Part shown: positions 2,038-22,376 of the stretch, piece by piece
Numbering within the stretch: the stretch's first letter is position 1
How the letters are laid out: every line of letters starts with the position of its first letter
Assembly (NCBI GenBank): GCA_903899375.1
Contig: CAIUIT010000065.1
Location: forward strand, 1-34,262
Length of the DNA stretch: 34,262 nucleotides
From: an uncultured Actinomycetes bacterium
GTDB taxonomy: Bacteria > Actinomycetota > Actinomycetes > Nanopelagicales > Nanopelagicaceae
Direction: 5' to 3'
Notes under the pieces: model-generated
The model's database searches: none
What the model saw: the letters and a program-made list of their open reading frames with translations, nothing else
What the model was told of the DNA's origin: nothing
Translations under genes and position numbers: made by a program

Positions 2038-3045
2038 TTATGACTGCTCCTTTTCATATGGCTTACCGGCGGCCGCCGGAGGTCTCACTTTGCCTGCCGA
2101 GAAGGCCAGCACCAGGATCGTGAAGACGTACGGCAAGATGGTGATGAACTGATTGGGAACGTTATTCACACCAAAGATTTGCAGTTGCGTTGCCAGAGCT
2201 TGGGCCAGGCCGAAGAGGATGGCAGCGGCAAAAGCTCCGAGCGGGTTCCAGCGTCCAAAGATCATCAAGGCAAGGGCGGTGAAACCGGTGCCTGCAGTGA
2301 AGTCCTTGCTGAAGGAACCCACGAGTTCTAGACATATAAAGCCGCCTACAAGTCCGCCTATGGCCCCACCAATCATCACGTTGGTCATGCGCATGCGAAT
2401 GACGTTGATTCCAGCTGTATCAGCCGCACCAGGGTTCTCGCCTACCGAACGTGTGCGCAGCCCCCACCTGGTTTTATTCATCATCACCCAGATAGCGGGG
2501 ATGAGAAACATTCCAAATAATTGAATCGGTCCCAGCTGACTAAAGAGAGATGCTCCAAGCAGTGGGATCTTAGATAGGACAGGGATATCGAAGATCGGCC
2601 AGGTATTGGGAACCGTGGAACCTTCGCGGTAGAGGAAGGAAGTCAGGCCTGAAGCCAAAATATTGATGATCGTTCCCGCGATGATCTGATCCATCCCCCA
2701 TTTGATGGTCATCATGGCGTGCACAAAAGAGGTGAGCACACCGGTGAGAATGGCGATAACCAAGCCGATGACAATGTTCTTGCTGTAGGACGCTACATAG
2801 AACCCGGTGAAACCAGAGAGGAGCATGGTGCCTTCAATGCCGATGTTGATAACGCCAGATCTTTCGCACATGATTCCGACCATCGAGGCCAGTGCCAAAG
2901 GCATACCAAAGCGCATTCCGGAAGCGACAACCGAATTAGTTATATCCATGTTTGCGGAGTAACAATAAATCCACAAGGCCACCGTGGCTACGGAAAGGAG
3001 GAATTTCCAAGATTTAAAGTTGAAGCTCTTTATGGTGTTTAGCAT
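2038..3045 (-). CDS. BMP-type ABC transporter permease (second permease)
   Basis: An inner-membrane permease of the BPD_transp_2 family (RbsC/NupC-like), about 335 residues, with multiple hydrophobic spans and the family segment GIMCERSGVINIGIEGTML near the N-terminus. The ATG at 3045 overlaps the TAA of the preceding permease by one base (TAATG), a classic translational coupling. A longer TTG start at 3057 is possible but less likely. It should pair with the upstream permease to form the translocation channel for the BmpA-delivered substrate. The ATPase gene follows after 2 nt. The start choice is the only real uncertainty. Confidence 0.9.
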   Translation of the reverse strand: MLNTIKSFNFKSWKFLLSVATVALWIYCYSANMDITNSVVASGMRFGMPLALASMVGIMCERSGVINIGIEGTMLLSGFTGFYVASYSKNIVIGLVIAILTGVLTSFVHAMMTIKWGMDQIIAGTIINILASGLTSFLYREGSTVPNTWPIFDIPVLSKIPLLGASLFSQLGPIQLFGMFLIPAIWVMMNKTRWGLRTRSVGENPGAADTAGINVIRMRMTNVMIGGAIGGLVGGFICLELVGSFSKDFTAGTGFTALALMIFGRWNPLGAFAAAILFGLAQALATQLQIFGVNNVPNQFITILPYVFTILVLAFSAGKVRPPAAAGKPYEKEQS

Positions 3046-4094
3046 TATGAACCCCAACCAGAGGTAGTTGTAATCGATTTAGCATTTGATTTCAATAACT
3101 TGGCTAAGAATGGTGCGGTGGCGAAGAAAAGCACCAATGCGAGCAGAAGGTTAATAATGTCGGGGGCCACACCAGCTTCAAATTGGATTGCTGACTGCGC
3201 AGAACGCATGCCGCCGATGAAGATTGCTCCAGGAATCAGGGCCTTTGGATTGGCTCGGCCAAGCAAGGCAACGGTGATTCCGTCGAAACCTATTCCGCTA
3301 TAGAAAGCGGGTACAAAATAGCCAGTAGTTTCGGAGCTAAAGATTGCACCAGTGAAACCAGCGATGGCACCGCTTACCAACATCCCCAGGACGATCGTCT
3401 TTTTCACCGATATACCGGCATACCAAGCCGCGTTCCTGTTTCTGCCGACGCTTTCAAATTCAAAACCTGTCGTTGTTTTCTTTAACACCCACGATACAAA
3501 GAACGCTAAAAGTACTGCGATTAAAAAACCCGAAGGGTAACCAAAAATATGTGGCAGCCGCGCGGAATGGAGAATCTCTGGAGTACGCGTATTTGGCTGG
3601 CCTTGTAGGCGGAATTGATTTTGAGTTAAATAGTCAACGACTCCGGCCATAATACTGTTGAGCATAATTGTCGAGATAACTTCGTGAACTCCGCGGGTTG
3701 CTTTGAGAAAACCAGCAAATCCACCGACCAAAGCTCCGAAAGCGGCGCCCACAACAAGTGCAACGGGCAGATGTATCCAAATTGGGAGTCCGTGGAGTCG
3801 ATAACCAACATAGGTAAAAGCCAGCGCACCGCTAAGGACCTGTCCTTGGGCGCCAATATTAAATAGCCCGGCGCGTAGCCCGATTGTGATTGCCAATCCG
3901 GACATAATCAATATGCCGGCCTTGCTTAGAGTTGATTGCAATCCTGCGGTGGATTGAAAACCTTTTACGATCAGTACGTGATAAGCCGTCATCGGGCTAT
4001 GTCCTTGGGATGCAATTAAAATCGCACCTATCGCGAGTGCCACTAATACCGATGCGATGGGAACCAATACATCCCTGGTGACTTTTAGCTTCAT
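3045..4094 (-). CDS. BMP-type ABC transporter permease (first permease)
   Basis: A 349-residue integral membrane protein of the BPD_transp_2 family (NupB/YufP-like) with about eight or more hydrophobic spans. Family-typical stretches are GLAITIGLRAGLFNIGAQGQ (about 66-85) and GRNRNAAWYAGI. It forms half of the channel of the nucleoside-type importer. The ATG at 4094 has only a weak GGA upstream. The gene is separated from bmpA by 103 bp containing a strong intrinsic terminator-like hairpin, so its expression probably depends on read-through from bmpA or on its own promoter. It is coupled by TAATG to the next permease. Confidence 0.9.
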   Translation of the reverse strand: MKLKVTRDVLVPIASVLVALAIGAILIASQGHSPMTAYHVLIVKGFQSTAGLQSTLSKAGILIMSGLAITIGLRAGLFNIGAQGQVLSGALAFTYVGYRLHGLPIWIHLPVALVVGAAFGALVGGFAGFLKATRGVHEVISTIMLNSIMAGVVDYLTQNQFRLQGQPNTRTPEILHSARLPHIFGYPSGFLIAVLLAFFVSWVLKKTTTGFEFESVGRNRNAAWYAGISVKKTIVLGMLVSGAIAGFTGAIFSSETTGYFVPAFYSGIGFDGITVALLGRANPKALIPGAIFIGGMRSAQSAIQFEAGVAPDIINLLLALVLFFATAPFLAKLLKSNAKSITTTSGWGS

Positions 4095-4140: not shown

Positions 4141-4182
4141 TAAAAATCGAGTAGCAGGAAAGCAAACTTCCCTGCTACTCGA
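4141..4182 (-). terminator. Intrinsic terminator / attenuator after bmpA
   Basis: On the minus strand, arms at 4171-4182 and 4147-4158 form a perfect 12-bp stem (TCGAGTAGCAGG with its complement) around a 12-nt loop. It is followed directly by a U-rich tract (TTTTTA, from plus-strand 4141-4146). It sits 16 bp after the bmpA stop and 47 bp before the first permease start. Placed inside the transporter operon it should act as a partial terminator, leaving binding-protein mRNA more abundant than membrane-component mRNA, a known arrangement in ABC importers. Structure is seen directly; the partial read-through is inferred. Confidence 0.85.
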
Positions 4183-4197
4183 TCGAGTTATTGGGTA

Positions 4198-5247
4198 CTA
4201 CTTAACGCCAGTTGAAAGAGATCCAGAGAGGACCTTCTTTGTAATAGCGGTTACCTTGGCCTGAACGGCTGCAGGGATCTTGCTTGCGAATGCGTGGTAT
4301 GGAGCAATGCCAACTTTTCCGAAGACATTTCCACCAGCAAAGGTGCCAGCCTTGAACTTGCCAATGAGATCTGCAACGCCTGGGGCGATGAGCTTCTCAG
4401 CAGAAGTTACGAGGCAAGCCTGAGCTTCTGGGACGGTATTCCACTGGTCAACATCTACACCAATGCAGTACTTACCCTTTGACTTTGCGATACGAGCAAG
4501 GCCACCGTTACCGGTACCTCCACCAGCAGCGAAGATGACGTCATAACCCTGTGAGAGAAGCTGTGCAGAGTTTGAAGCACCGAAAGCTGGATCGCTGAAT
4601 GCATTATCCCCAGCTGGGTGATAGATAATCTTTGTAGCAGGGAACTTCTTCTTCTGCTCTTTGCCGGCATATGCAACACCGTTTGCGAAGCCAACTGCAT
4701 AACGATAAACAGGTGGAATGTTCATTCCAACAACTTCGCCGGTCTTGCCGGTCTTGGTGAGGTAACCAGACAAGTAACCTGCGATGAAGCCAGCTTGATC
4801 TTCATGCCAGTTAAGTCCTGCAAGGTTTGGTGTGGTCTTTGTAGTATCAAGGAATTGATCTACACCGATGAACTTGATATCTGGATACTTGGCTGCTTCA
4901 GTGATTGTAGCGTTTGCCTCTAAGTATCCAACAGTAACAATTACGCTGTAATGCTTTGCAGCAAAGAGCTCCATGTTATTGGCGTATTCGGTATCTGTTG
5001 CAGCATTTGATTCGATGTAGTTAGCGATTCCGCCAACAGCCTTTGCGCCAGCTTGTGCGCCTTCCCAGGCAGCCTGGTTGAATGACTTGTCGGTGACGTG
5101 TCCGATATCAGTAACGACACCAACGCAAATGACGCCTGTGTTTCCGCAGGTGGAGTCATCGGTGGTAGCAGCTATTGATGAAGGAGCTGTAAATCCAAGT
5201 AGAGCCAGTGCGGCAGCAGCCACACTCGCGCCTAAGCGTTTTTTCAT
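4198..5247 (-). CDS. bmpA: BMP-family substrate-binding protein (PnrA/Bmp, nucleoside type)
   Basis: A 349-residue secreted binding protein of the BMP/PnrA family (purine-nucleoside and related receptors). An N-terminal signal peptide (about 1-26, ending in SSIA) precedes the mature domain, which starts with the family strand GVICVGVVTDIGHVTDKSFNQ. Other family segments are IVTVGYLEANA, KFIGVDQF, FAAGGGTGNGG and YCIGVDVDQW. No lipobox cysteine lies at the cleavage site. The nearest cysteines (34 and 41) look like a disulphide pair, so anchoring differs from typical lipoprotein BmpA. The ATG at 5247 has a good site (GAGAGGA, 5 nt). It is the first gene of the ABC operon, with a terminator after it. 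Substrate is inferred from family and neighbours. Confidence 0.93.
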   Translation of the reverse strand: MKKRLGASVAAAALALLGFTAPSSIAATTDDSTCGNTGVICVGVVTDIGHVTDKSFNQAAWEGAQAGAKAVGGIANYIESNAATDTEYANNMELFAAKHYSVIVTVGYLEANATITEAAKYPDIKFIGVDQFLDTTKTTPNLAGLNWHEDQAGFIAGYLSGYLTKTGKTGEVVGMNIPPVYRYAVGFANGVAYAGKEQKKKFPATKIIYHPAGDNAFSDPAFGASNSAQLLSQGYDVIFAAGGGTGNGGLARIAKSKGKYCIGVDVDQWNTVPEAQACLVTSAEKLIAPGVADLIGKFKAGTFAGGNVFGKVGIAPYHAFASKIPAAVQAKVTAITKKVLSGSLSTGVK

Positions 5248-5354: not shown

Positions 5355-6023
5355 TTACCAATTGGGACTCGCGGAATTGCCACCATCGAGTGTCAATATT
5401 TCGCCAGTTATCCATGGTGCGGTTAAGAGAAAATGTAACGCTTCCGTTATGTCTGTTAGCTCTCCCATGCGAAGAAGTGGAGTCGCTTTGCGCCAGGAGT
5501 CGACGCCCTCGGACCACGAACTCTCAATGCCAGGTCGAGAGATTAATCCGAGTCGTAGCGCGTTCGAACGTGTCGGCGCTAATTCAATTGCTGCCGAACG
5601 AGTGAGCGATTCCAGGGCAGCTTTTGAGGCGCCATATATGGAATGGCCCGCTCGTGCATGTACAGCTTCGATCGAGGAGATATTGACGATGCTTTGCACC
5701 GTCCATGAACTGCTCTTAACACATGCATATGTTTCGGCAACAGCGTTGAAATTCACCTGCATGATTTCTGCAATAGTTTCTGGTGCCATTGTGAGAAAGT
5801 TTTCGACTTTTTGGTTAGCAGCATTGTTAATGATGTAATCAAGGTTGATTCCCTTGGAGTGGAGTGACTCCAAATATTTCGTTGTGGCTCCAGTCGTCGA
5901 AAGATCGCACTCGGATCGACTGGGTGATATGACTGTTGCGCCTTGCGCTGCAAAGAAGGTGGAGATGTGGCCTCCGATATAGCCAGATCCCCCGGTGAGC
6001 AGGATTGTGGAGTTCTTAAACAT
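5355..6023 (-). CDS. Short-chain dehydrogenase/reductase
   Basis: A 222-residue classical SDR, slightly shorter than the usual 245-260. Cofactor motif TGGSGYIG is at 10-17, NNAA at 66-69, the catalytic Ser at 116/117 (NISS), and YGASK with Tyr130 and Lys134. A C-terminal ITGEILTLDGG matches the family ending. It is an NAD(P)-dependent oxidoreductase in the cytoplasm; the substrate cannot be read. Its ATG overlaps the end of the cupin gene by 8 nt, so it is translationally coupled to it and belongs to the purine/guanidino operon. The acidic-free cofactor loop with PSRSE after the second strand hints at NADP(H), but this is weak. Confidence 0.88.
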   Translation of the reverse strand: MFKNSTILLTGGSGYIGGHISTFFAAQGATVISPSRSECDLSTTGATTKYLESLHSKGINLDYIINNAANQKVENFLTMAPETIAEIMQVNFNAVAETYACVKSSSWTVQSIVNISSIEAVHARAGHSIYGASKAALESLTRSAAIELAPTRSNALRLGLISRPGIESSWSEGVDSWRKATPLLRMGELTDITEALHFLLTAPWITGEILTLDGGNSASPNW

Positions 6024-6453
6024 GGATCAATCCTGGCACCGATGGCTCGACTTTCTGCCATTGCGCAAATGTTTCCGGTGGAAGAAGAGTCATGTCCGTA
6101 AATGGCGGAGCTAAAAAGCAGAGAACAAGTGAAAAGTCTCCTGTGGTGCGCGCAGCCATCCAGGTTCCGGGCGGTACCGAATAGGTGAAATCGCCCCCAT
6201 CATGGGAGAGAAGGTTCCTCTGCGTTGAACCCGCATCGGTGCGAGTAAAGAGTTCGATAGGGGCGCCATCGAGAAAGACCCAGGTTTCGCGCTCGTTGAG
6301 CTTATGCCATGCAGAGAATTGGCCTGGTGTTACCAGGAAATAAATTGCATTGCCGTGTTCATCGCGATGAGAAGTGGCGAAGTATCCGCCTTCTCCGTGT
6401 AGTGGCTCTAAGTGCAATGCCGCTATTGCCTCTGTTGCGCTGGCGAATTTCAA
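6016..6453 (-). CDS. DUF985 / cupin_5 family protein
   Basis: A 145-residue single-domain cupin of the DUF985 type. The signature pattern is LEPLHGEGGYFATSHR near residue 16, then AIYFLVTPGQFSAWHKLNERETWVF with the metal-type His/Glu, and a late VPPGTWMAAR and LVLCFLAPPF. Members are small metal-binding sugar- or nucleotide-related cupins of mostly unknown activity. The start is a TTG whose bases overlap the deaminase stop (TTGA), giving tight translational coupling to it. The 3' end overlaps the SDR start by 8 nt. This suggests an accessory role in the same pathway, not demonstrated. Confidence 0.82.
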   Translation of the reverse strand: MKFASATEAIAALHLEPLHGEGGYFATSHRDEHGNAIYFLVTPGQFSAWHKLNERETWVFLDGAPIELFTRTDAGSTQRNLLSHDGGDFTYSVPPGTWMAARTTGDFSLVLCFLAPPFTDMTLLPPETFAQWQKVEPSVPGLIHV

Positions 6454-7766
6454 TTGGTGCCCACCTTGAGATCTGCAAGGGCACGAACCCGTTCAAGAAC
6501 CCGTTTACGTAAATCTGGCTCATCTATATGGGTGACCTTCCTGCTTTCTAAAACTTTATCGCCATCGACCCATGCATCTATTACATCAGATCTACCAGCG
6601 GCAAAGACGAGCAACGCTGCAAGATTATGAATAGGAGTCAGATGCAGGGCGGTGAGATCAATTGCTATGAGGTCAGCTCTCTTGCCAACGGTGATACTGC
6701 CGACCAGGTGATCGATTCCGATGGCGCGTGCCCCGTCAATGGTGGCGGCGCGAACAATTTGGGCGGGCTGTACATCAGCTGGAGAATGTTTTAACGCGAC
6801 CATGTGGGCGGCGATTCGCATCACTGACCACATATCTAAATCGTTGCTCGATGAACATCCATCAGTACCCAGTCCAACAGTTACACCACGAGAAATGTAG
6901 TGCAAGTAATCCGCGACTCCGGATCCCAACTTGAGATTACTTCCTGGACAGTGTCCGATCGAAGTCCCATGCGAGTGCACGATCGCGATGTCATCTTCAG
7001 ATAAGTGCACCCCATGGCCAAAGACAACAGGTACATCGAGGATTCCAGTATCTTCGCAGACCTGCGTTGGTGACTTCTGATATTTTTCATTGACCGCCTG
7101 ATTTTCATTCATGGTCTCTGAAACATGCAAGTTAATTCGAGCGTTCACTTTCTTAGCGAGTTGGGCAACTTCATGTAAATGTTCTGGAGAATCGGTGTAC
7201 GTGCTATGCGGCATGAAATAAATAGGGATTTCGGGTCCACCAATATTTTTGAGAACAGTAGGCCACGCTTCGCCAAATGCAATTCGCTGACTCCACTCCA
7301 TCCCATCTAAACCGGGAAAGTCGAAGAAAATGGGTCCAGTGACATGACGGAGTCCGACTTTAACCGCAGCTGCATGCGTTGCATCAGGGTTGAGATACAT
7401 ATCTAAAACTGTGGTTGTGCCACCCTGGATCGCTTCGGCTGCGCCCAGTTCGGTACCTAAAGCAGATGTGGGCTTATCCATGATTGCGCCTTCAGCCGCC
7501 CAGACTCGCTCCAGGAATCCATCGAGGTTCACGCTCTCGGCCCATCCCCGCAGAAGTGCCATTGCCAGGTGAGAATGAGTATTAATTAACCCAGGCATGA
7601 TTAAGCGATCTTTTCCATCATAAATTTCTGTTATATCCGCAGGCACATTGGCTGGATTGATCGATTCAATGACCCCATCGCGAATCACGATGGTTGCGTT
7701 CTCTAGAACGCAATCTTGATCATCTACCGTGTATACATAGCTCGCGTTCTTAATAATAAAAGACAT
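6450..7766 (-). CDS. mtaD: 5-methylthioadenosine/S-adenosylhomocysteine deaminase (amidohydrolase)
   Basis: A 438-residue amidohydrolase of the MTA/SAH deaminase (TrzA/AtzB-like) family. The N-terminal small beta domain is followed by the metal motif NTHSHLAMALLRGW (His64, His66), HVSET (His214, Glu217), FGHGVHL (His251) and GTDGCSSSNDLDMW (Asp302). It should hydrolyse the 6-amino group of methylthioadenosine, S-adenosylhomocysteine or 5'-deoxyadenosine, giving the inosine analogue and ammonia. It starts 5 nt after the stop of the methylthioinosine-phosphorylase-like gene, and its AAGGA ribosome site lies inside that gene. The two together make a deaminate-then-phosphorolyse route. Guanine or other ring deaminase activity is an alternative for this superfamily but less likely given the motifs. 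Confidence 0.85.
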   Translation of the reverse strand: MSFIIKNASYVYTVDDQDCVLENATIVIRDGVIESINPANVPADITEIYDGKDRLIMPGLINTHSHLAMALLRGWAESVNLDGFLERVWAAEGAIMDKPTSALGTELGAAEAIQGGTTTVLDMYLNPDATHAAAVKVGLRHVTGPIFFDFPGLDGMEWSQRIAFGEAWPTVLKNIGGPEIPIYFMPHSTYTDSPEHLHEVAQLAKKVNARINLHVSETMNENQAVNEKYQKSPTQVCEDTGILDVPVVFGHGVHLSEDDIAIVHSHGTSIGHCPGSNLKLGSGVADYLHYISRGVTVGLGTDGCSSSNDLDMWSVMRIAAHMVALKHSPADVQPAQIVRAATIDGARAIGIDHLVGSITVGKRADLIAIDLTALHLTPIHNLAALLVFAAGRSDVIDAWVDGDKVLESRKVTHIDEPDLRKRVLERVRALADLKVGTN

Positions 7767-7771
7767 ATCTA

Positions 7772-8509
7772 TTAGATCCTTGGGAGAGCAAGGTTCAAAA
7801 TATCAATGACCTTTTGTGAGGAACTAGCCAAGACCGCTGAAATATCTTCCATCGTGATCTTCTGGTCAGAGACTCCAGCTGCAGGATTCACGCATAAGGC
7901 GATAGAGGCATAGCGCAGACCTGCTTCGCAAGCCAACGTTGCTTCTGGGCACCCAGTCATACCAACGACAGTTGCGCCTGCAAGAGCTGCCAATCTAATT
8001 TCGGCTGGAGTTTCGAAACGGGGGCCGTTAAATCCGGCGTAAACACCTTTTTGCTTGACTGTTATTCCTAGCTCTGCCCCAGCCTGGGTCAGTACCGCAC
8101 CCATTTCGACGTCGTAAGCGTCAACGACATCGGTGTGCTGCAGCGCTTCATTTATTCCATCAAAAAATGTATCTTCACGCCCAGAGGTAAAGTCAACGAA
8201 ATCGGTAATGATCTGCAAGTCCCCCGCCTTGAGCGTTGGATCAATACTGCCTACAACATTTATCGCGATGACTCTATTAACGCCTAAATCTCTCAATGCT
8301 TGGATATTGGCCCGGTAATTCACTTTTGAAGGTGGAACGGTGTGTTTGACTCCATGACGCGTAACAAATTCGATGGGGATATCACCCCACATGCCACTTG
8401 TGATGAGCGCTTGGCCAAATTTGGTATCGACCGCCCGCGGCGTGGAATTTGAAAGTGCAGGTAGCGTGTAAAAACCGGTTCCGGCAATGATTCCAACCTT
8501 GTTAACCAT
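7772..8509 (-). CDS. S-methyl-5'-thioinosine phosphorylase-like (MTAP/PNP family)
   Basis: A 245-residue nucleoside phosphorylase of the MTAP/PNP family, the short bacterial form. Phosphate-site motif RHG is at 51-53, with NYRANI at 64-69, GPRFETPAEIR at 162-172 and MTGCPEATLACE from 184. The base-recognition position reads LCVNPAAG, with Asn208. An Asn here, as in PNP and in Pseudomonas methylthioinosine phosphorylase, favours 6-oxopurines, whereas MTAP has Asp for adenine. The predicted reaction is methylthioinosine (or inosine) plus phosphate to hypoxanthine plus (methylthio)ribose-1-phosphate. It has a good AGAGG ribosome site and sits between the ureohydrolase and the deaminase. Specificity is inferred from one residue and context. 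Confidence 0.85.
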   Translation of the reverse strand: MVNKVGIIAGTGFYTLPALSNSTPRAVDTKFGQALITSGMWGDIPIEFVTRHGVKHTVPPSKVNYRANIQALRDLGVNRVIAINVVGSIDPTLKAGDLQIITDFVDFTSGREDTFFDGINEALQHTDVVDAYDVEMGAVLTQAGAELGITVKQKGVYAGFNGPRFETPAEIRLAALAGATVVGMTGCPEATLACEAGLRYASIALCVNPAAGVSDQKITMEDISAVLASSSQKVIDILNLALPRI

Positions 8510-8536: not shown

Positions 8537-9505
8537 TTACTTGGTAGCGAAAGCGCTAATAAGTTCGTAAATGACGTGCGATGCGGCGATGCCTGTAATT
8601 TGCGCATGATCGTAGGCGGGGGCTACCTCTACGACATCGGCGCCAATGACATTCATTCCAGCGGTGGCGCGTAGTACCGAAAGAAGTTCGCGACTGGTGA
8701 GTCCGCCCGCCTCTGGAGTGCCAGTGCCAGGTGCGTGAGCCGGATCTAGGACATCGATATCAATGCTGATGTAAACGGGACGCTGGCCAACGCGGGCCTG
8801 CATCTTCTTGATGGCTTCGTGCGCGCCGAGATCCTGAAATTCGATGCTAGAGAAGATCTGGAATCCCAGGGCTTTGTCATCTGTTAAATCTTTAGCTGCA
8901 TAGAGCGAGCCGCGAATTCCAATATGCATGCAACCTTCTGGGTCGAGTAATCCCTCTTCGCTGGCACGTCTAAATGTGGTGCCGTGGGTGTAGTCGGCGC
9001 CAAAATAGGAATCCCATGTGTCTAAGTGAGCATCAAAGTGCACAACGCTAATCGCTCCGTGCTTAGCCTTGAGCGATCGCAAGATCGGAAGGGTGATCGT
9101 GTGATCGCCACCGATCGTCACAATGCGTTTTGCACGCTCTAAAAGTTGGTCATAGCTCTTGTGAATACCGGCAATGGCCTCTTCAATATCAAAGGGATTT
9201 GCAGGAAAGTCACCAGCATCTGCAACTTGTTGTTGCGAGAATGGTGAAACATCGCCTGCGGGGTTGTAAGGGCGGAGCAGCCGCGCCGCTTCGCGGACAT
9301 GACTGGGACCGAAGCGAGCACCGGGGCGGTATGAAACACCGCTATCAAAGGGGATTCCAACGATCGCAACATCAACATCAGATACTTCGTAAAGTTCTGG
9401 TAGCTGGGCAAATGTTGTTAACCCGCTATAGCGCGGGACTTTTGTGGCATCGATCTGGCCGACAATCTTGCCGTTGGTCACTCTTGGTTTGCTGGTATCG
9501 CCCAT
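8537..9505 (-). CDS. Agmatinase-family ureohydrolase (agmatinase / guanidinobutyrase type)
   Basis: A 322-residue binuclear manganese ureohydrolase that should split a guanidino compound into an amine and urea. Metal ligands are visible: GGDH (His135), FDAHLD (Asp158, His160, Asp162) and SIDIDVLDP (Asp249, Asp251), then the family ending GTGTPE. The N-terminus [13 protein letters not shown] resembles guanidinobutyrase/guanidinopropionase more than E. coli SpeB, so 4-guanidinobutyrate or a related acid is as likely as agmatine. It starts 17 nt after the cyclase-family gene with an AGGA ribosome site. An NCS1 permease two genes upstream may feed it. Family is certain, substrate is not. Confidence 0.88.
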
Positions 9506-9522
9506 TTACAAATCCTATCTCG

Positions 9523-10161
9523 CTACCAGCTGGCGATAGCGCGGACTGGGGCGCCATCACTGGCGCCTAAATTAAGGGGCAACATAGAGATGTTTGGCCG
9601 TTCGACCGTGATTTGAGAGAGTCCAGTGAAGTTTTCACCGATGATGCCATCTCCTTGAGACCAGAAATAATGGTTGGCCAGGGTGAACTCCTCCCCCGCT
9701 ACAGGGGTTCTGTCGAGGGAGAGAAAATCCAAAGCTATGGTTGTAATCCCGTGATTCTTAAGGTGGGTCAGTGATTCCACGTTTGGATAAGGGTGCGCCA
9801 AATAGCGTGCAGTTCCAAAGTATTGCGACCAGTCGGTCCGTACGAGCGCAATACTCACGCCAGTTAAATCTAGGTTTGTAAACCGTTCGGTGGGTATTTC
9901 TTGACGGTCGGATAATCCCGTTGCATCTATAACGGCACCTATGCCGATGAAATTTGAAAGATCCACTTCATTCAGTCTTTTACCATCCGCAAGAACGTGG
10001 AAGGGCGAATCGACGTGTGTACCGGATTGTGAGCCCATGTTAACTGTAAGGACATTGACGAAATCATCTTCGATCGTGAGTGCTGGTTTGATTTCTACCT
10101 TCGGATCTCCGGGATAAACCTGGAGATCCGTTAGCAGAATGTGGCTGAGATCTACGATCAT
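9523..10161 (-). CDS. Cyclase-family metal hydrolase (kynurenine-formamidase-like)
   Basis: A 212-residue protein of the cyclase family (PF04199), which includes kynurenine formamidase and isatin hydrolase. The metal motif SGTHVDSPFH gives His49, Asp51 and His55, and the protein begins with the family start IVDLSHILLTDLQVYPGDP. Members are small Zn/Mn amidohydrolases acting on formamides or cyclic amides. Here it lies between an NCS1 permease (13 nt upstream) and the ureohydrolase (17 nt downstream), so it probably opens or deacylates a nitrogenous compound brought in by that permease (inference). No tryptophan-degradation genes are nearby, so KynB is not supported by context. Confidence 0.85.
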   Translation of the reverse strand: MIVDLSHILLTDLQVYPGDPKVEIKPALTIEDDFVNVLTVNMGSQSGTHVDSPFHVLADGKRLNEVDLSNFIGIGAVIDATGLSDRQEIPTERFTNLDLTGVSIALVRTDWSQYFGTARYLAHPYPNVESLTHLKNHGITTIALDFLSLDRTPVAGEEFTLANHYFWSQGDGIIGENFTGLSQITVERPNISMLPLNLGASDGAPVRAIASW

Positions 10162-10174
10162 GCAGAAACTATAA

Positions 10175-11680
10175 CTACTTCTTCACAATCGGAGCAGTTG
10201 GCATATCGACTGCAGGCCGGAAGCGAGCACCCAATTCACCGTGAATAGCGGCTGGTTCCGAAGAGAACTTCAACGTGAGCCAGTACAAGACCGCAGGCAG
10301 AATGACGGCAACCAGCAGCGAGATATCTAGACCATTGAAGTGACTTCCAAGTACTCCCACGAACTGGCCAGGGACGTTCACAAAGCAAAGGCTCAAACCA
10401 GCGCTAAAGATCCAGATGAAGAGAGCTTCAACGTTGAAGCCATTTCTGAACCAGTATGCGCCGCCCTTTTGGCCGCGATTGAATACCTGTAGATCATCGG
10501 ATAGGTAATGGCCCCGGCGATGCAGGAATCCAACCATCATCATGATCATCCACGGCGTTGTGCAGACGATAATCAAGGTTACGAAGGTGGTAACGCTGGT
10601 TACCAAGTTGTATCCGAATCGCCCGATAAAGATCAGGACTATCGAGATGATTCCGATGAAGATGGTTGCCTGCACGCGACTGAGTTTTGGAAATACGCTC
10701 GAGAAATCCAGTCCGGTGCCGTACAACGATGTGGAACCCGTCGACATGCCGCCGATAATGGCGAGCAGCAAGATTGGAAGCAAGAACCAACTTGGTGTTG
10801 TCGCAAGCATGCCACCTACATAATCAAAATTCTTAAAGGAATCAGGGGCTTTTTCAGCTACTACTGCTGTAGTAACCAAGCCAAAGAGGAATGGCAAGAG
10901 AGATGCGATCTGGGATAAGAATGCAGCCTTCATAACTCTCATTCCGCCAGAGTCCCTGGGAATATAACGAGACCAGTCGCCCAGGAAGGCACCGAAGGAG
11001 ATTGGGTTCGAAAGAACGATAAATGCAGAACCGAGGAAGGCGGGCCAGAATCCAACACTTGCAGTGCTCTTAAATGAACCTACATAGTGCCAGTTAACCT
11101 TGCCAGAGAAGGCGATGAAGCCAAGGACCAAGACGAAGGATGCCCCAGTAACGGCAATTTTATTGATCCAGAGCATGAACTGGTATCCATAGATACACAC
11201 AGCCAAAATCAAAAGCGCCATGATGCCGTAAGCGAATCCGCGGAATACCTTTGAATCGTGCCAACCAAAGAGTTGAACTGCGCCGCCGACGATGGCATCT
11301 CCTGCAGTCCACACCGCGATGGAATAAAAGGCGATAGCGGTGAGGAGCGAAAGATAAGAGCCGAGTACACGGCCAACGACGCCAAAGTGTGCTCCAGATG
11401 AAACTGCGTTATTGGTACCGTTGATTGGTCCAAAGACCGCCATTGGCGCCAAAATTGCCGAACCAACTACGACTCCGAGCAGAGTTGCCAGCAACCCTTG
11501 CATCAAGGAGAGTCCGAAGAAGATAGGGAAAGCGCCGAGCAAAACGGTGGCAAAACTATTTGCGCCACCAAAGGCAATTTTGAAGAGATCCGATGGGGTA
11601 GATGTTCGGTCCGCTGCCGGAATCGACTCCACTCCATAGATTTCTATATCAGTCATTTTCGGTTTGCTATTAGTGCTCAT
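10175..11680 (-). CDS. NCS1-family purine/cytosine-type permease (A)
   Basis: A 501-residue, roughly 12-span NCS1 permease (purine-cytosine permease group). Family marks are an N-terminal GVESIPAADRTSTPSDLF just before span 1, the GPINGTNNAVSSGAHFG region, LSNPISFGAFLGDWSRYIP, and GRFGYNLVTSVTTFVTLIIV. It should import a nucleobase-like or small nitrogenous ring/guanidino compound with H+ or Na+. The ATG at 11680 has GGAG 9 nt upstream. It heads the permease, cyclase-family hydrolase, ureohydrolase run. It differs clearly from permease B next to creatininase, so the two probably have different substrates. Confidence 0.88.
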   Translation of the reverse strand: MSTNSKPKMTDIEIYGVESIPAADRTSTPSDLFKIAFGGANSFATVLLGAFPIFFGLSLMQGLLATLLGVVVGSAILAPMAVFGPINGTNNAVSSGAHFGVVGRVLGSYLSLLTAIAFYSIAVWTAGDAIVGGAVQLFGWHDSKVFRGFAYGIMALLILAVCIYGYQFMLWINKIAVTGASFVLVLGFIAFSGKVNWHYVGSFKSTASVGFWPAFLGSAFIVLSNPISFGAFLGDWSRYIPRDSGGMRVMKAAFLSQIASLLPFLFGLVTTAVVAEKAPDSFKNFDYVGGMLATTPSWFLLPILLLAIIGGMSTGSTSLYGTGLDFSSVFPKLSRVQATIFIGIISIVLIFIGRFGYNLVTSVTTFVTLIIVCTTPWMIMMMVGFLHRRGHYLSDDLQVFNRGQKGGAYWFRNGFNVEALFIWIFSAGLSLCFVNVPGQFVGVLGSHFNGLDISLLVAVILPAVLYWLTLKFSSEPAAIHGELGARFRPAVDMPTAPIVKK

Positions 11681-11820
11681 TCAATTCTCCATCCTGGTAA
11701 ATAATGGGTAATCAGCTGGATAAAAGGTACAGGTTTTCCGAGTTTTCTTTCAAAATTGGGGCTAGATTTAACACAACATTCGGCCAAGATGGGGATATCA
11801 CCCCGTTAGGACTAGTAACC
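11681..11820. promoter_or_regulatory. Divergent intergenic region (permease A / NTF2-like gene)
   Basis: This 140-bp AT-richer gap separates the minus-strand NCS1 permease A from the plus-strand NTF2-like gene and must hold both promoters. It contains a GGGG-ATATCA-CCCC imperfect hairpin at about 11791-11804, just before the plus-strand start. I could not place convincing -35/-10 pairs. No other gene is seen. Confidence 0.4.
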
Positions 11821-12219
11821 ATGAGCGCGATAGAAGAGGTTAGACAAGCAGCCGCAACACTCGTAACTAATTTTGGCGCAGGGCGTGTCCCGCAATATTT
11901 TGGGTGTTTTAGCGCTGATGCCGACTTCATCTTTTATACGCATAACGAACACCTGACTTCGCGCGTCGCCTACGAAGAGCTTTGGAAATCATGGGAAGCA
12001 GAAATCAATTTTAAAGTTCTATCGTGTACCAGTAGCGACCAGCACATTCGCTTGCTTAGTCCAACCGCCGCCGTCTTTACTCACAACGTTTCTACTACCG
12101 TCTCAACAACTGATGGGACCGATGTTGTACTAGAACGCGAAACAATTGTCTTCGAATTGATCAACGGTTCGTGGATAGCTGTTCATGAACACCTATCCCC
12201 GATGCCCGCTAATTCCTAA
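11821..12219 (+). CDS. SnoaL/NTF2-like protein
   Basis: A 132-residue protein with an NTF2-like (SnoaL_3/DUF4440-type) fold pattern. An N-terminal helix (EEVRQAAATLVTNF) leads to FSADADFIFYTH, and a C-terminal beta sheet ends in ERETIVFELINGSWIAVHEHLS. That ending (interpretation of an ingoing carbon-rich cavity with W-x2-HEH) is typical of the family. Function in this group is not predictable; members include isomerases, small-molecule binders and calcium/calmodulin-kinase association-like domains. I chose the ATG at 11821 over an upstream ATG at 11704 because the domain starts here. It is the only plus-strand gene in the first 31 kb, wedged between permease A and creatininase and convergent with the latter (15-bp gap). 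Confidence 0.75.
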   Translation: MSAIEEVRQAAATLVTNFGAGRVPQYFGCFSADADFIFYTHNEHLTSRVAYEELWKSWEAEINFKVLSCTSSDQHIRLLSPTAAVFTHNVSTTVSTTDGTDVVLERETIVFELINGSWIAVHEHLSPMPANS

Positions 12220-12234
12220 ACCTAAAAGATTGAC

Positions 12235-13035
12235 TCAATAACCGTCCGCAATTTGGCGCTCTTGTCCCAATTCGAAATCGATCGAAGCGGTAATGCGCGT
12301 GACAATATCAACCCAGACGATCTTGCCCTTTTCGGTTGAGGAGCGGGTGGCTTTCCACAGTGCGCCGCTTTCTGGTACAAAATCCTTGGGAGGTGGAACA
12401 ACATCGTATGAAGGGTGGCGCTTTGCCTCGTCATCTACCGCGCGATCCATCAAAACCAGATCGGGGCGCAGATGCAAGAGAATCGAAGTCTCTAGGACCG
12501 CAGCGTGCTCGACATCCCAACCCGGGAATTCATCTCCAAATAGGGCTGTGACAACTTCCTCCGAAATACCAGCAAACGTTGCCTCGCAGACCATGATGCG
12601 AAGACCTTTGATCTTCATCCGCTCATAAGCCAAGAATGCGGCTTCGTAAATAAAATTCGAATTTTCGTAATGCCAATTCATGAGGACGATCTTGCGAAAG
12701 CCGCTCTTTACATAGGCGCAGATAACATCTTCGAGATTCTTGATGAAGGTTATTGCGCTTACGCTCAAGGTCCCGGGGAATCCTTCTCCCCCGCCGGCGA
12801 GTGGTCGCGAGCGATTTCCAAAGACAATTGAAGGCCCAACTAACATGTCAAGTTTTTCGGCTACTTCCAGCGCCATCGTTTCGGGAATTATTACATCCGT
12901 GAAGAGTGGCAGGTGCGGTCCATGCTGCTCTGTCGCGCCGATCGGGATGCCGATTAAGGCACCCCGATCTGCTGCATCGCGGATCTCAGGCCAGGTGAGG
13001 TCTGAGTATCTGGTACTGCGACTTACTTTTGGCAT
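12235..13035 (-). CDS. Creatininase (creatinine amidohydrolase)
   Basis: A 266-residue member of the creatininase family. It should open creatinine to creatine, the first step of creatinine breakdown. Metal ligands match those of Pseudomonas creatininase: Glu36, His38 and Asp47 (GATEQHGPHLPLFTD), then His122 and Glu124 (NWHYEN). The segment GWDVEHAAVLETS keeps Trp173, His177 and Glu182. The active-site Trp corresponding to Pseudomonas Trp154 appears replaced by Thr153 (CEATF). It starts 5 nt after the permease B stop, downstream of creatinase. The family also includes mycofactocin-type and F420-linked paralogues, but HYENS, the WDxEH segment, the C-terminal YDV/EKGK pattern and the creatinase neighbour make true creatininase the best call. 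Confidence 0.85.
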   Translation of the reverse strand: MPKVSRSTRYSDLTWPEIRDAADRGALIGIPIGATEQHGPHLPLFTDVIIPETMALEVAEKLDMLVGPSIVFGNRSRPLAGGGEGFPGTLSVSAITFIKNLEDVICAYVKSGFRKIVLMNWHYENSNFIYEAAFLAYERMKIKGLRIMVCEATFAGISEEVVTALFGDEFPGWDVEHAAVLETSILLHLRPDLVLMDRAVDDEAKRHPSYDVVPPPKDFVPESGALWKATRSSTEKGKIVWVDIVTRITASIDFELGQERQIADGY

Positions 13036-13040
13036 TAGTT

Positions 13041-14459
13041 TTACTCCACCGCCGTTGAGGCGTAACCAAGAATCTTCTTGGCGTTAGGCATCTTCCAGAT
13101 TGCAGCAACGATTACGCTGTAAAGAACAGCAGCCATAATCCAAGCTTCGACCGGAACAATGCCCCAGCCAGCGAGAGGTGAACCAGCTTGTCCTGGTGCA
13201 ACGCCACTGCCGTAAGCGCCAAAGGCAACTGCGACGACAAGTACAACAACACCGACCCAGTTACCGCGTGCGGTCTGGTTCCATGAAGGAACTACCTTTG
13301 TTGGGCGCTTATATCCAGCGAGCAACTTAGGCAGTAGTAATTGATCAACATACATAATCACTGAAGCTGTTGGGACTGTAATTGCTAACCACGTTGTTAC
13401 ACGGAAGAAGTTCGCACTGTTTTGTGGAACCCACCAAGCCATGAAACCACCAAGAGCTGCAATAAAGGCACAGGTGTAAATACGACGCCATTTAGCCCAG
13501 CCGCCGAAGATATTCTGACCTGCATTAAGTGATTCGTAATAGTTAGCATCGTTAACAGCAATCTGGGTGGCGGTTGCCAGCAAGAAAGCTAAGAACGTCA
13601 AGCCAAAGAGCGAGAAGCTGACAGCTTCGCTAAATCCTTTGCCGAAATCACCGCTGTGAATACGCGCCGCGATAACCCAACCAGCAACTGGGAAGAGAAT
13701 CTGTCCGACAAAGAGTCCGACGGCAAGTGGAGGAACAACATTCTTCACGTGAGGTTTTGCATAACGGAAGAGATCTGCCTCGTTGCCGTATGTTGCAAAA
13801 CCGATAGCAGCGATAATTCCAAGAACTAATCCCGGAGCTTTAACGCCCGCAGCATGTGAGTTAAGGATGGAACTTCCGCTGGTAGAGAATGCCTTGATCA
13901 CCATATAAAGAACCCAGACGAGAGTAATGGGAGCAGCAACCCAACGAGCGAAGGCGCTGATACCAGTGAAACCGAGGACGTTGTTCACGATTCCAAGAAC
14001 TGCAATGACGACGCCGATTCCTACAACTGGTGTCCAGCTGTAGAGCGCATTCCACATGGTTGAGAGGGTGTTGGCTTGGTAGCCAATCCAACCAAGAGGT
14101 GCGATCAATACAAAGACAGAGACGATCATTGATCCAGATACACCGAAGACCGATCGACCCATGAGAGCGTGCGTCTGACCGCTCTTAGCACCTAGATATG
14201 CAGCAGGAATTGCATAAGCGAGGTAGCAGAGGCTGCTGATAAGAAGCATCTTAAGGACTGCATGCAATCCATATCCAAAGGAATAAAGTTCTGAGCCGAG
14301 GCTCATATAAGAGAAGCCAGCATAGAGAGTTATCCAAAGTGGCACATGGTGACTCCACGTTCCACGGCGGGCGCTTTCGGGGACGATGCCGTCGTGACTT
14401 GAAGAGTAATCATGTTTGATTTCAAGCTTCAACTCATTTGATTCACTAACTTTTGTCAT
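13041..14459 (-). CDS. NCS1-family permease (B), likely creatinine/creatine importer
   Basis: A 472-residue, about 12-span NCS1 (cytosine-permease-like) transporter beginning MTKVSESNELK. I use the ATG at 14459: it lies 1 nt after the creatinase TGA and a GGAGG ribosome site is embedded in the last creatinase codons (NGG-stop). A longer start at 14534 would overlap creatinase by 74 nt. Family marks include PESARRGTW before span 1, APLGWIGYQANTLS and TATQIAVNDANYYES. Being sandwiched between creatinase and creatininase, it most likely imports creatinine or creatine (inference; cytosine and allantoin carriers belong to the same family). Confidence 0.88.
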   Translation of the reverse strand: MTKVSESNELKLEIKHDYSSSHDGIVPESARRGTWSHHVPLWITLYAGFSYMSLGSELYSFGYGLHAVLKMLLISSLCYLAYAIPAAYLGAKSGQTHALMGRSVFGVSGSMIVSVFVLIAPLGWIGYQANTLSTMWNALYSWTPVVGIGVVIAVLGIVNNVLGFTGISAFARWVAAPITLVWVLYMVIKAFSTSGSSILNSHAAGVKAPGLVLGIIAAIGFATYGNEADLFRYAKPHVKNVVPPLAVGLFVGQILFPVAGWVIAARIHSGDFGKGFSEAVSFSLFGLTFLAFLLATATQIAVNDANYYESLNAGQNIFGGWAKWRRIYTCAFIAALGGFMAWWVPQNSANFFRVTTWLAITVPTASVIMYVDQLLLPKLLAGYKRPTKVVPSWNQTARGNWVGVVVLVVAVAFGAYGSGVAPGQAGSPLAGWGIVPVEAWIMAAVLYSVIVAAIWKMPNAKKILGYASTAVE

Positions 14460-14460
14460 A

Positions 14461-15690
14461 TCAGCCTCCATTCTTGATGATGTTGTGTTCAGGACCAAAC
14501 GGGAACTTCGTGATATTTTCTGCTGTTTTTGCACCTACGAGGAAGATGTCATGTTCGCGGTAACCACCGGCGCCTGGCTTGCCTTCTGGAATGGTGATCA
14601 TTGGTTCCATCGATACAACCATACCTTCTTGCAAGACGGTTTCGATATCTTCGCGGAGCTCAAGTCCAGCTTCACGCCCATAGTAATGAGATAGAACTCC
14701 GAAGCTATGTCCGTAGCCAAATGTGCGATTCTCGAGAAGTCCGTGGCTGCGATAGATCTCGTTTAGTTCATTAGCGATATCCATGCAACGAGCGCCCGGA
14801 ACAATTAACTCTGAACCGCGACGGTGAACTTCGACGTTGATCTCCCAGTACCGCAATGATGCTTCGTCTACATGGTCAAAGAACATCGTGCGCTCTAAAG
14901 CGGTGTAATAACCGCTGATCATTGGGAAGCAGTTGAGGCTCAATATGTCACCTTTTTGCACGCGCCGACTTGTGACCGCGTTATGGGCCCCATCGGTATT
15001 GATTCCGGATTGGAACCAGACCCATGTATCTTGCAACTCTGCATTGGGATATTCACGAGCGATCTCGCGCACCATCGCGCGAGTACCAGCGAGCGCAACC
15101 TCGTACTCTGGAATATTCTCTTCAACGGCTGCCGCAACTGCTGCGCCGCCGATATCTGCAGTGCGAGCGCCGCTACGAATGATGCCCATTTCCTCTTCAG
15201 ATTTGAACATGCGCAACATCATGGTTTGTGGAGCAATATCGACGAGTTCTACACCAGGAAGCGCTGCTTGAAGCTTGGCGCGGATGGTGAGGCTCACATG
15301 ATCGAATTCAATTCCTACGCGCTTTGCATTGCGTGGAACAACTTCTCTGACTGCCTTGAAGTAGTTATCTCGCTGCCAATCTGTGTAGACGATATTGCTC
15401 CCATACGTCCTTCTGTGGGCTAGTCCGTAATCAATATTGGCCGAAATAGAAACTTGCTCTCCGGGGGTGACTACAAGGCCGTAATTGCGGCCGAAATAGC
15501 AGTACAAATAATCGGCGTAGTAATTAATATTGTGAAAGCTGGTGAAGAGTGAGGCGTCGAGGGACAATTCGGACATCAGGTTTCGAAGTCCTTTAAGCCG
15601 GCGATCCATCTCAGCTGGAGTGAAAGTTGGGATAGCACGCTCACCGTTAGGCAATTTGATGAGGCTAGGGCGATCCATTTGAGTAGTCAT
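14461..15690 (-). CDS. Creatinase (creatine amidinohydrolase)
   Basis: A 409-residue pita-bread protein of the M24 fold that should hydrolyse creatine to sarcosine and urea. It is not a generic Xaa-Pro peptidase. The sequence tracks Pseudomonas creatinase nearly end to end with a constant +4 offset, including FTSFHNINYY, VYTDWQRDNYF, FQSGINTDGAHN, SLNCFPMI and TFGYGHSFG. Catalytic residues are all present: Cys64, Arg68, His236 (general base), Glu266, Arg339 and Glu362. M24 metal ligands are absent, as in creatinase. The ATG has a GGAGG site 7 nt upstream. It heads the creatinase-permease-creatininase run below a PucR-type regulator. Free urea would need urease, not seen here. Confidence 0.95.
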   Translation of the reverse strand: MTTQMDRPSLIKLPNGERAIPTFTPAEMDRRLKGLRNLMSELSLDASLFTSFHNINYYADYLYCYFGRNYGLVVTPGEQVSISANIDYGLAHRRTYGSNIVYTDWQRDNYFKAVREVVPRNAKRVGIEFDHVSLTIRAKLQAALPGVELVDIAPQTMMLRMFKSEEEMGIIRSGARTADIGGAAVAAAVEENIPEYEVALAGTRAMVREIAREYPNAELQDTWVWFQSGINTDGAHNAVTSRRVQKGDILSLNCFPMISGYYTALERTMFFDHVDEASLRYWEINVEVHRRGSELIVPGARCMDIANELNEIYRSHGLLENRTFGYGHSFGVLSHYYGREAGLELREDIETVLQEGMVVSMEPMITIPEGKPGAGGYREHDIFLVGAKTAENITKFPFGPEHNIIKNGG

Positions 15691-15799
15691 TGCGCACCCT
15701 CCAAGGGCTTAGGTGTCCAAACGGGGTTGGATTACGCGCAGTGTGACAGGGCGCACAATTGAAGTGGAAGTGGTGAAACGCCCAGAGTTTTCCCCTCAC

Positions 15800-15817
15800 T
15801 ATGTAGGAACCTACATA
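15800..15817. promoter_or_regulatory. 18-bp palindrome upstream of creatinase (candidate operator)
   Basis: TATGTAGG-AA-CCTACATA is an 8-2-8 inverted repeat, perfect in both arms, 110 bp before the creatinase start and just after the regulator's stop. It sits within the 130-bp gap (15691-15820) that must carry the creatinase promoter. The two-base spacer is too short for a stable RNA hairpin and no U-tract follows, so a dimeric-protein binding site is more likely than a terminator. Binding by the adjacent PucR protein is inferred. Confidence 0.55.
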
Positions 15818-15820
15818 ACT

Positions 15821-17305: not shown

Positions 17306-17419
17306 AAATATCGCCCTCCCGTTTGGCCGCTCAACCCCAATAAAGTGGAAGGCTCTAGCGTAGGACACGCTCGCTCACATTAACCGACTTCCAAGACCCC
17401 TAAATATTGCCTGGCCGGT
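17306..17419 (-). promoter_or_regulatory. Upstream region of the pucR-type gene
   Basis: This 114-bp gap between the UbiA gene and the regulator probably holds the regulator's promoter. An AGCGT-N5-ACGCT inverted repeat lies at 17357-17371 and could be an autoregulatory site, but 5-bp arms are weak evidence. No gene or terminator was recognised. Confidence 0.25.
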
Positions 17420-21381: not shown

Positions 21382-21383
21382 GA

Positions 21384-22376
21384 CTACTCCCCCATCAATT
21401 CGTAACGTTCAATATTTTTATCTGCGATGCGCTGCAGGTGATCGATGACTTCGTCATTGCGCTGCGGCGAGAAGAGGTGGCTGTAGCGGGTCTGCAGTTT
21501 GAGGTATTCCTCAACACTGACTTTCTTGCGAATCTTGCTCGATGCGACGACTTCGCCGTTGATTGCTTCAAAGACGGGGAACAATCCACTCTGGGTAGCA
21601 AGACGTGCGATCTTTATAGTGTCACAGGATGCCGATCCCCAACCAAGTGGGCATGGCACTAAAACGTGCAGATAGCGACTGCCGTGCATTGTCATCGCCC
21701 GTTCGACCTTTGCTTCGAGATCGCGCAAGTCTGCGATTGTGGCTGTTGCGACATATGGAATGTCGTGAGCCATAGCGATCTTAGGCAGGTACTTACCTTG
21801 ACCGAAGACGTTGCCGGGTTTGGCGCCGACTGCTTGAGTGGTGGCGGTGCGAGCTGCAGGTGGTGTGGCACCAGAACGCTGGACGCCGGTATTCATATAA
21901 GCCTCGTTGTCGTAACAGATGTACAGGACATCATCGTTGCGTTCGAACATTCCACTCAGTGCACCAAAACCGATATCGACGGTCGCGCCGTCACCGCCTT
22001 GGGCGACTACGCGGGTGGTGTGATTCCCCTTTGCTTTGAGCGCTGCAGCGACACCCGTTGCAACAGCAGGGGCGTTGCCAAAGAGTGAGTGCAACCAGGC
22101 AACGCGCCAGGAAGATTCGGGATAGGGCGTGGAAAATACTTCAAGGCAACCGGTGGCGTTGACTGCGATCAGTTGATCGTTGGTAGCGCGCATTGCGGCA
22201 TCGAGTGCATAGCGAGCACCCAGCGCTTCACCGCAACCTTGGCAGGCGCGATGGCCCGATGTCAGCGCGTTGGTGCGTTCGGGATCGGATTGCACGCTGC
22301 GTTCGTCTTCGCGCAGGAGGCGATTTCCGACGGCAAAGGAGCCGACCTGATAGAACTTGATCTGTGTGGTGCTCAT
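21384..22376 (-). CDS. porB: 2-oxoacid:ferredoxin oxidoreductase, beta (TPP) subunit
   Basis: A 330-residue TPP-binding subunit. Four cysteines of its own [4Fe-4S] cluster are Cys45 and Cys48 (ACQGCGE), Cys77 (ATGCLEV) and Cys242 (VPCPLGW). The TPP/Mg motif is GGDGATVDIG (127-136) with YDNEAYMNTGVQRS after it. It catalyses the decarboxylation half of pyruvate + CoA + ferredoxin to acetyl-CoA + CO2 + reduced ferredoxin. Its start overlaps the porA stop by 4 nt (ATGA). Pyruvate specificity is likely from the close resemblance to PorB, but other 2-oxoacids are possible. Confidence 0.9.
   Translation of the reverse strand: MSTTQIKFYQVGSFAVGNRLLREDERSVQSDPERTNALTSGHRACQGCGEALGARYALDAAMRATNDQLIAVNATGCLEVFSTPYPESSWRVAWLHSLFGNAPAVATGVAAALKAKGNHTTRVVAQGGDGATVDIGFGALSGMFERNDDVLYICYDNEAYMNTGVQRSGATPPAARTATTQAVGAKPGNVFGQGKYLPKIAMAHDIPYVATATIADLRDLEAKVERAMTMHGSRYLHVLVPCPLGWGSASCDTIKIARLATQSGLFPVFEAINGEVVASSKIRKKVSVEEYLKLQTRYSHLFSPQRNDEVIDHLQRIADKNIERYELMGE

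Follow-up and report, generated by a model that had tools for sequence, protein, structure and literature searches.

An importer-linked deaminase and methylthioinosine-type phosphorylase in freshwater actinobacteria: a probable system for external 5'-modified adenosines

Which purine nucleoside is broken down by a phosphorylase and a deaminase that are encoded together with a nucleoside importer? The question is raised by a stretch of DNA of 34,262 nucleotides from an uncultured member of the Nanopelagicaceae (GCA_903899375.1, contig CAIUIT010000065.1), referred to as the window. It represents contig C65 of a 1.38 Mb assembly that is 90.7% complete. The window carries a module of eight genes for a BMP-type nucleoside ATP-binding cassette (ABC) importer, a phosphorylase, a deaminase, a DUF985 cupin and a short-chain dehydrogenase/reductase (SDR). 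The module is probably a catabolic system for external 5'-modified adenosines, namely methylthioadenosine (MTA) and/or 5'-deoxyadenosine, whose sugar would be led into the dihydroxyacetone phosphate (DHAP) shunt. The gene set, its conservation, its co-occurrence across genomes and the residues for 6-oxopurine bases were seen in the sequence itself; every reaction we infer.

Base-site residues of the phosphorylase and its partner deaminase

A preliminary description of the window, made from its letters, had placed a phosphorylase and an amidohydrolase 5 nt apart between positions 6450 and 8509, and both genes were confirmed there on the minus strand. The phosphorylase (245 aa) is encoded at 8509-7772 and the deaminase (438 aa) at 7766-6450, starting 5 nt downstream. 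The phosphorylase matched PNP_UDP_1 (1.5e-40) and scored 234.9 bits on NF006599 (S-methyl-5'-thioinosine phosphorylase; cut-off 223 bits), while it stayed with 238.5 bits beneath the cut-off of TIGR01694 (methylthioadenosine phosphorylase, MTAP; 274.85 bits). Its best solved relative is 3ozb with 42% identity over 233 columns. This structure was deposited under the name methylthioadenosine phosphorylase, and we take it to be the methylthioinosine (MTI) phosphorylase of Pseudomonas.

The preliminary description had further proposed that Asn208 replaces the Asp of MTAP and matches the use of 6-oxopurines. An alignment with the Sulfolobus MTAP and 3ozb bore this out, as Asn208 falls on the leading Asp of the TDYD motif in the former and on an Asn in the latter. 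A second diagnostic residue, which had gone unmentioned, is Glu166 within RFET (Ser in the Sulfolobus MTAP). Both 6-oxopurine base-site residues are the same as in 3ozb, and the Asp and Ser pair of MTAP is lacking; the combination agrees with MTI phosphorylase and purine nucleoside phosphorylase (PNP), not with MTAP. Conservation was examined in 80 of the 84 relatives of the phosphorylase locus, hereafter the named loci, and rows gapped at a column were excluded from the count for that column. Asn was found in 78/78 relatives covering column 208 (two gapped) and Glu in all 79 covering column 166. These data support a putative phosphorylase for 6-oxopurine nucleosides (methylthioinosine) rather than for MTA.

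At the side of the 5' group, Met220 and the Met of 3ozb share an alignment column with a His in the genome's own PNP; this His presumably binds the 5'-OH as in human PNP. Among the 34 Nanopelagicales-type loci this column holds Met in 26, another residue in six and a gap in two, whereas His occurs in 20 of the 46 more distant relatives. Met is thus a trait of the Nanopelagicales-type group and not of all MTI-type enzymes. A search of the window's assembly with PF01048 returned only two members, the module phosphorylase and the ordinary PNP on contig C28. A classical MTA phosphorylase or MTA nucleosidase, for which the preliminary description had proposed a genome check, was not found by this search of the 90.7% complete assembly.

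The deaminase is an amidohydrolase (Amidohydro_1, 8.9e-62) with MTA/SAH deaminase-type proteins as best solved relatives (SAH, S-adenosylhomocysteine), namely 4f0r (2.8e-74) followed by 4dzh, 3lnp, 4dyk and 4gbd. Across 30 aligned sequences, H64, H66, H187, H214, E217, H251 and D302 were invariant, and the metal-ligand and catalytic set of cog0402-type amidohydrolases (HxH, H, D, Glu/His) is complete. The metal or catalytic roles of H64, H66, H214, E217, H251 and D302 are assumed from the amidohydrolase superfamily. Given these relatives, the pair could also act on SAH and S-inosylhomocysteine or on aminofutalosine instead of 5'-deoxynucleosides. This is extremely unlikely. SAH hydrolase was detected in 26 of the 27 genomes searched, the window's included, and SAH is therefore an improbable main substrate; the model for aminofutalosine deaminase gave 99.7 with a cut-off of 320, and the linkage to the genes of MtnA and MtnK described below points to 5-deoxy-5-(methylthio)ribose sugars.

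Linkage of the enzyme pair with a nucleoside importer

The cupin gene (6016-6453, minus strand; DUF985/Cupin_5, PF06172, 5.3e-23) overlaps the deaminase gene by 4 nt and is itself overlapped by the SDR gene (5355-6023, minus strand; PF13561, 4.5e-30) by 8 nt. The fold of the cupin was predicted without alignment and reached a pLDDT of 44.8. Behind the SDR gene, four importer genes continue on the same strand. They code for a BMP/PnrA-type substrate-binding protein (4198-5247; PF02608, 2.3e-38), two permeases (3045-4094 and 2038-3057; PF02653, 1.5e-44 and 1.1e-41) and a double-domain ATPase (524-2035; PF00005, 2.6e-48, two stretches).

The module recurs in Nanopelagicales-type freshwater actinobacteria and, with a changed arrangement, in Acidimicrobiia. 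The window's best named relative is L053 from an 'uncultured actinobacterium' bin, with a phosphorylase 98% identical to that of the window; G061 is the genome of the locus 98% identical to the window. Other near loci carry the titles Candidatus Planktophila and Candidatus Nanopelagicaceae. When the window proteins were compared with the 80 named loci by tblastn, the deaminase gene followed the phosphorylase gene directly in 29/29 Nanopelagicales-type loci offering 1.4 kb or more of room downstream. In those of the 34 closest loci that leave room, the cupin was present in 27/27, the SDR in 23/23 and the importer ATPase in 27/30, the misses being L056, L059 and L086 with short flanks. The importer genes precede the enzyme genes in some loci and follow them in others, which argues that the linkage was rebuilt more than once. 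In G028 and G053, two genomes of the family that do not belong to the named set, the cupin gene is not adjacent to the module, and in G053 the SDR was likewise not seen beside it; such exceptions allow core and accessory parts of the module to be distinguished. Cupin and SDR belong to the module set, and their strict company is its least explained fact.

Co-occurrence was studied in a family sample of 61 genomes, 19 of which carry the phosphorylase (at least 55% identity to the window's). The link to a nucleoside-type importer claimed in the preliminary description was confirmed, as the module binding protein (at least 57% identity) was found in 19/19 of these genomes versus 0/42 of the others, many of which own a more distant BMP protein. 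The module-type deaminase was present in 18/19 versus 1/42 (G033), Cupin_5 in 16/19 versus 0/42 and mtnA, the gene of methylthioribose-1-phosphate isomerase, in 17/19 versus 0/42 (Fisher p 3e-13, a guide only, for the sampled genomes share kinship and the value overstates their independence). Within seven genera, phosphorylase-bearing genomes occur alongside others, and there mtnA tracks the phosphorylase with the window's genome as the sole exception. Among the 27 genomes behind the named loci, 26 have mtnA. S-methyl-5-thioribose kinase (MtnK) exceeded its cut-off in 3/19 versus 0/42 and in 6/80 genomes altogether, every one phosphorylase-bearing. A short RuBisCO-like protein was found in 13/19 versus 0/42, with G043 having a true RuBisCO; this search covered 80 of 88 genomes (all but G070, G079, G081 and G083-G087). 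True RuBisCO was detected in G043, G066, G080 and G082, and in G065 a RuBisCO large-chain gene lies in two overlapping pieces (C87, 1061-1958), probably due to a frameshift.

An importer of this kind might simply serve general purine-nucleoside scavenging: it would take up adenosine and other nucleosides, the deaminase would act on adenosine, and the phosphorylase would split inosine as a second enzyme of this kind. BMP-type binding proteins do include purine nucleoside receptors, presumably among them TmpC (2fqw), a solved relative of the module's binding protein. In several relatives the importer genes are followed by cdd, deoA and add (cytidine deaminase, pyrimidine-nucleoside phosphorylase and adenosine deaminase), a neighbourhood in keeping with an importer for nucleosides in general. 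However, the same genome has a PNP of its own for ordinary nucleosides, with His at the site of the 5' group where the module phosphorylase has Met; the module binding protein is confined to phosphorylase-bearing genomes in spite of the more distant BMP proteins in the others; and mtnA tracks the phosphorylase. To our knowledge, mtnA has no role for ordinary ribose-1-phosphate in bacteria. Use of ordinary adenosine or inosine was set aside on the separate PNP, Met220 and the mtnA linkage, and general scavenging is judged unlikely.

The preferred reading, catabolism of 5'-modified adenosines from outside, had been suggested in the preliminary description as scavenging and gained support from the importer co-occurrence and from the lack of spermidine synthase. 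This enzyme was absent in 25/25 genomes searched (19 with the module, six without; control positive in 11/14), which makes an outside substrate likely. With SAH hydrolase being present, the enzyme pair is accounted for neither by polyamine production nor by removal of SAH.

Radical S-adenosylmethionine (SAM) enzymes produce 5'-deoxyadenosine inside any such cell, and an internal source of this nucleoside is possible. The pair could accordingly do internal housekeeping, clearing only the cell's own MTA or 5'-deoxyadenosine from SAM enzymes, with the importer being incidental. Genes of the DHAP shunt can indeed act in detoxification (PMC6079011, PMC10986504). Nevertheless, 42 of the 61 related genomes live without the phosphorylase, the importer is linked in 27 of the 30 named loci with room and spermidine synthase is missing in all 25 genomes searched, so that housekeeping appears very unlikely. 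External sources have been described: the freshwater cyanobacterium Microcystis has MTA in its exometabolome (PMC12405062), and certain Prochlorococcus cultures release MTA (PMC10654061). Furthermore, exogenous MTA and 5'-deoxyadenosine sustain growth of E. coli via the DHAP shunt (PMC10986504). Whether the substrate is MTA, 5'-deoxyadenosine or both cannot be told from the sequence.

Fate of the sugar and neighbouring genes

In the proposed pathway, the BMP-type importer would bring in the 5'-modified adenosine, and the deaminase would convert its adenine to hypoxanthine, giving methylthioinosine or 5'-deoxyinosine. The phosphorylase would then use phosphate to release hypoxanthine and 5-methylthioribose-1-phosphate or 5-deoxyribose-1-phosphate. 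MtnA is expected to isomerise the sugar-1-phosphate to the ketose-1-phosphate, a class II aldolase to cleave the latter into DHAP and an aldehyde, and a dehydrogenase to finish the aldehyde.

Both mtnA and a class II aldolase were found jointly in module-bearing genomes. Class II aldolases were searched in the same 25 genomes as spermidine synthase, and in 16 of the 17 mtnA-bearing family genomes one was encoded within approx. 1 kb of mtnA; in the seventeenth, mtnA and aldolase both lie close to contig ends. Out of 14 named loci with mtnA in reach, eight have a fused aldolase/SDR as partner and four have, at the same place, a short class II aldolase that belongs to a different subgroup; L059 is without an aldolase partner and L078 ends at a contig edge. 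Two kinds of aldolase displacing each other at one place support the aldolase step.

The operon of G061 comprises mtnA and the genes of the aldolase/SDR, a split transketolase and a RuBisCO-like protein, and is cut by the contig end; a GntR/UTRA gene diverges from it. The one kinase-bearing operon examined over its whole length, that of L182, additionally codes for a sugar ABC importer besides the S-methyl-5-thioribose kinase (378.6 bits against a cut-off of 275), and the kinase in company with mtnA ties the latter to 5-deoxy-5-(methylthio)ribose sugars. A split transketolase and the short RuBisCO-like protein, for which 3qfw is the best solved relative, lie inside the mtnA operon of L143, L144, L149 and L182. 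L059 places mtnA directly before the split transketolase, after which come the genes of the RuBisCO-like protein, the phosphorylase and the deaminase; an aldolase gene does not intervene.

Several observations weigh against the proposed catabolism of external 5'-modified adenosines, in addition to the nucleoside genes beside the importer and the internal source of 5'-deoxyadenosine mentioned above. No curated NCBIfam cut-off was reached by the deaminase, which scored 211.3 on NF012037 (MTA/SAH deaminase; cut-off 779) and 284.5 on NF005557 (5'-deoxyadenosine deaminase; cut-off 522), so that its substrate is deduced from the nearest relatives and the context. G033 has an orphan deaminase with 56% identity (L188, 2601-3902), and the module phosphorylase, cupin and mtnA were not found in this genome; the deaminase can thus serve another role. 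L059 has mtnA and no adjoining aldolase. Moreover, searches of the window's 90.7% complete assembly did not return mtnA, a class II aldolase gene or a RuBisCO-like protein, and G005 is without mtnA although it is rated 99% complete. Yet mtnA and the aldolase/SDR gene adjoin in G061, the near-identical relative of the window, where their operon lies on a contig of its own, and contig C13 of G005 starts inside the same operon. Missing assembly is therefore the simplest reason for the gap in the window's genome, albeit not a proven one.

In Acidimicrobiia the same parts are rearranged. L089 (12 kb) splits them between its strands, with cupin, deaminase and SDR genes together on one and mtnA together with the importer, phosphorylase and aldolase genes on the other. 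In two genomes of this class an LsrF-type thiolase gene stands right beside mtnA (L159, 4842-5678; L190). G080 has two facing gene groups, one with cupin, deaminase, SDR plus a regulator of DeoR/LsrR type and the other with mtnA, a thiolase of LsrF type (341.5 bits against a cut-off of 297) and aldolase/SDR; in G081 a 76% identical LsrF fragment adjoins mtnA. In the breakdown of autoinducer-2, LsrF splits 3-hydroxy-5-phosphonooxypentane-2,4-dione with CoA to acetyl-CoA and DHAP. On paper, 5-deoxyribulose-1-phosphate oxidised at carbon 4 has the connectivity of this compound. It is conceivable, though with a low probability, that the SDR forms a 2,4-dione phosphate by oxidising carbon 4 of 5-deoxyribulose-1-phosphate or of the methylthio counterpart and that LsrF-type cleavage then joins 5'-deoxynucleoside salvage to autoinducer-2 catabolism. 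Cupin and SDR would in that case define a new way of breaking 5-deoxypentulose phosphates, and in Nanopelagicales the RuBisCO-like protein and the split transketolase may be the cleaving enzymes. No pairing of LsrF with methylthioribose, 5-deoxyribose or MtnA was found among the literature matches listed.

Within the module, a pattern scan alone indicated a terminator-like 18-bp hairpin with a T run (4145-4184, minus strand) that separates the binding-protein gene from those of the permeases. The scan yielded 11 such sites with 7.3 expected, and this stem was the longest by far; it is placed as if it lowered permease expression relative to the binding protein. A promoter scan was uninformative (one site, 9.1 expected). 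A nitrogen-scavenging cluster lies 27 nt upstream of the phosphorylase gene (8537-17368) with genes for an agmatinase-type ureohydrolase, a cyclase-family protein, an NCS1 permease, a creatininase (303 bits, cut-off 235), a second NCS1-like permease, a creatinase/M24-like protein and a PucR regulator. Its ureohydrolase, cyclase-family and NCS1 genes were rejected as module members, since L086, which belongs to the same bin as L053 and shows part of the cluster, is the only one of the 80 loci besides the window to have them next to the phosphorylase. Further away (19762-23563, minus strand), this small freshwater actinobacterial genome codes for pyruvate synthase-type PorA and PorB with an Fe-S/flavin oxidoreductase.

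Relation to known pathways

MTA deaminase and MTI phosphorylase of Pseudomonas aeruginosa are presumably PA3170 and PA3004. Their reactions, deamination of MTA followed by phosphorolysis of MTI, have been described in this order (PMC6302742). The module resembles this route in its deaminase and its MTI-type phosphorylase with the same Glu, Asn and Met as 3ozb. It differs from it in the operon-like run with nucleoside ABC importer, cupin and SDR, in the lack of spermidine synthase and in the next steps, which in the window's relatives are an isomerase and a class II aldolase. Of the Pseudomonas route proposed in the preliminary description, deamination before phosphorolysis was supported, but the sugar probably goes to the DHAP shunt and not to methionine salvage as in Pseudomonas.

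The MTA-isoprenoid shunt of Rhodospirillum rubrum consists of a phosphorylase, MtnA, a RuBisCO-like protein and a cupin. In the window's relatives, the phosphorylase is similarly accompanied by MtnA, a cupin and a short RuBisCO-like protein. However, the module cupin belongs to DUF985, whereas the R. rubrum cupin is taken to be of another family, and the RuBisCO-like protein occurs in only 13 of the 19 genomes and did not turn up in the window's assembly.

The DHAP shunt, consisting of MtnN and MtnK or MtnP followed by MtnA and Ald2, is known from E. coli ATCC 25922, Rhodospirillum and Bacillus thuringiensis, and use of 5'-deoxynucleosides supplied from outside has been demonstrated in E. coli (PMC10986504, PMC12632272). 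Module-bearing relatives share MtnA and class II aldolase with it (parts as in PMC10986504 and PMC6079011). The available text of PMC10986504 names two variations of its entry, nucleosidase plus kinase or a phosphorylase, and deamination with an MTI-type phosphorylase is neither of them. The usual entry enzymes (MTA nucleosidase and kinase, or MTA phosphorylase) were not found in the window's own assembly. The relatives' aldolase is in addition mostly a fused aldolase/SDR, and a BMP-type importer is linked. Methanocaldococcus jannaschii, with a 5'-deoxyadenosine deaminase and a promiscuous MTI phosphorylase, likewise salvages 5'-deoxyadenosine and MTA by deamination first (PMC6302742). This system is archaeal, is proposed to feed into aromatic biosynthesis (PMC6079011) and comes with no importer module in the parts of these two papers that were available.

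In titles and abstracts retrieved on acI and methylthioadenosine, nucleoside ABC transporters of Nanopelagicales, actinobacterial methylthioinosine and the DHAP shunt with a deaminase, a description of the module was not found. Each enzyme kind is known; the proposed joining of deaminase, MTI-type phosphorylase and BMP-type importer to the DHAP shunt is a new combination. The orphan cupin and SDR recur with the same partner genes in two classes and offer tangible starting points for finding new enzymes.

Nanopelagicales-type actinobacteria are among the commonest freshwater bacteria. MTA and 5'-deoxyadenosine are universal by-products of SAM, and some phytoplankton shed MTA. If the proposed reading is true, the module would provide a third entry to the DHAP shunt beyond the two named in the available text of PMC10986504, and SAM wastes would become a source of carbon, purine and perhaps sulfur for Nanopelagicales-type actinobacteria.

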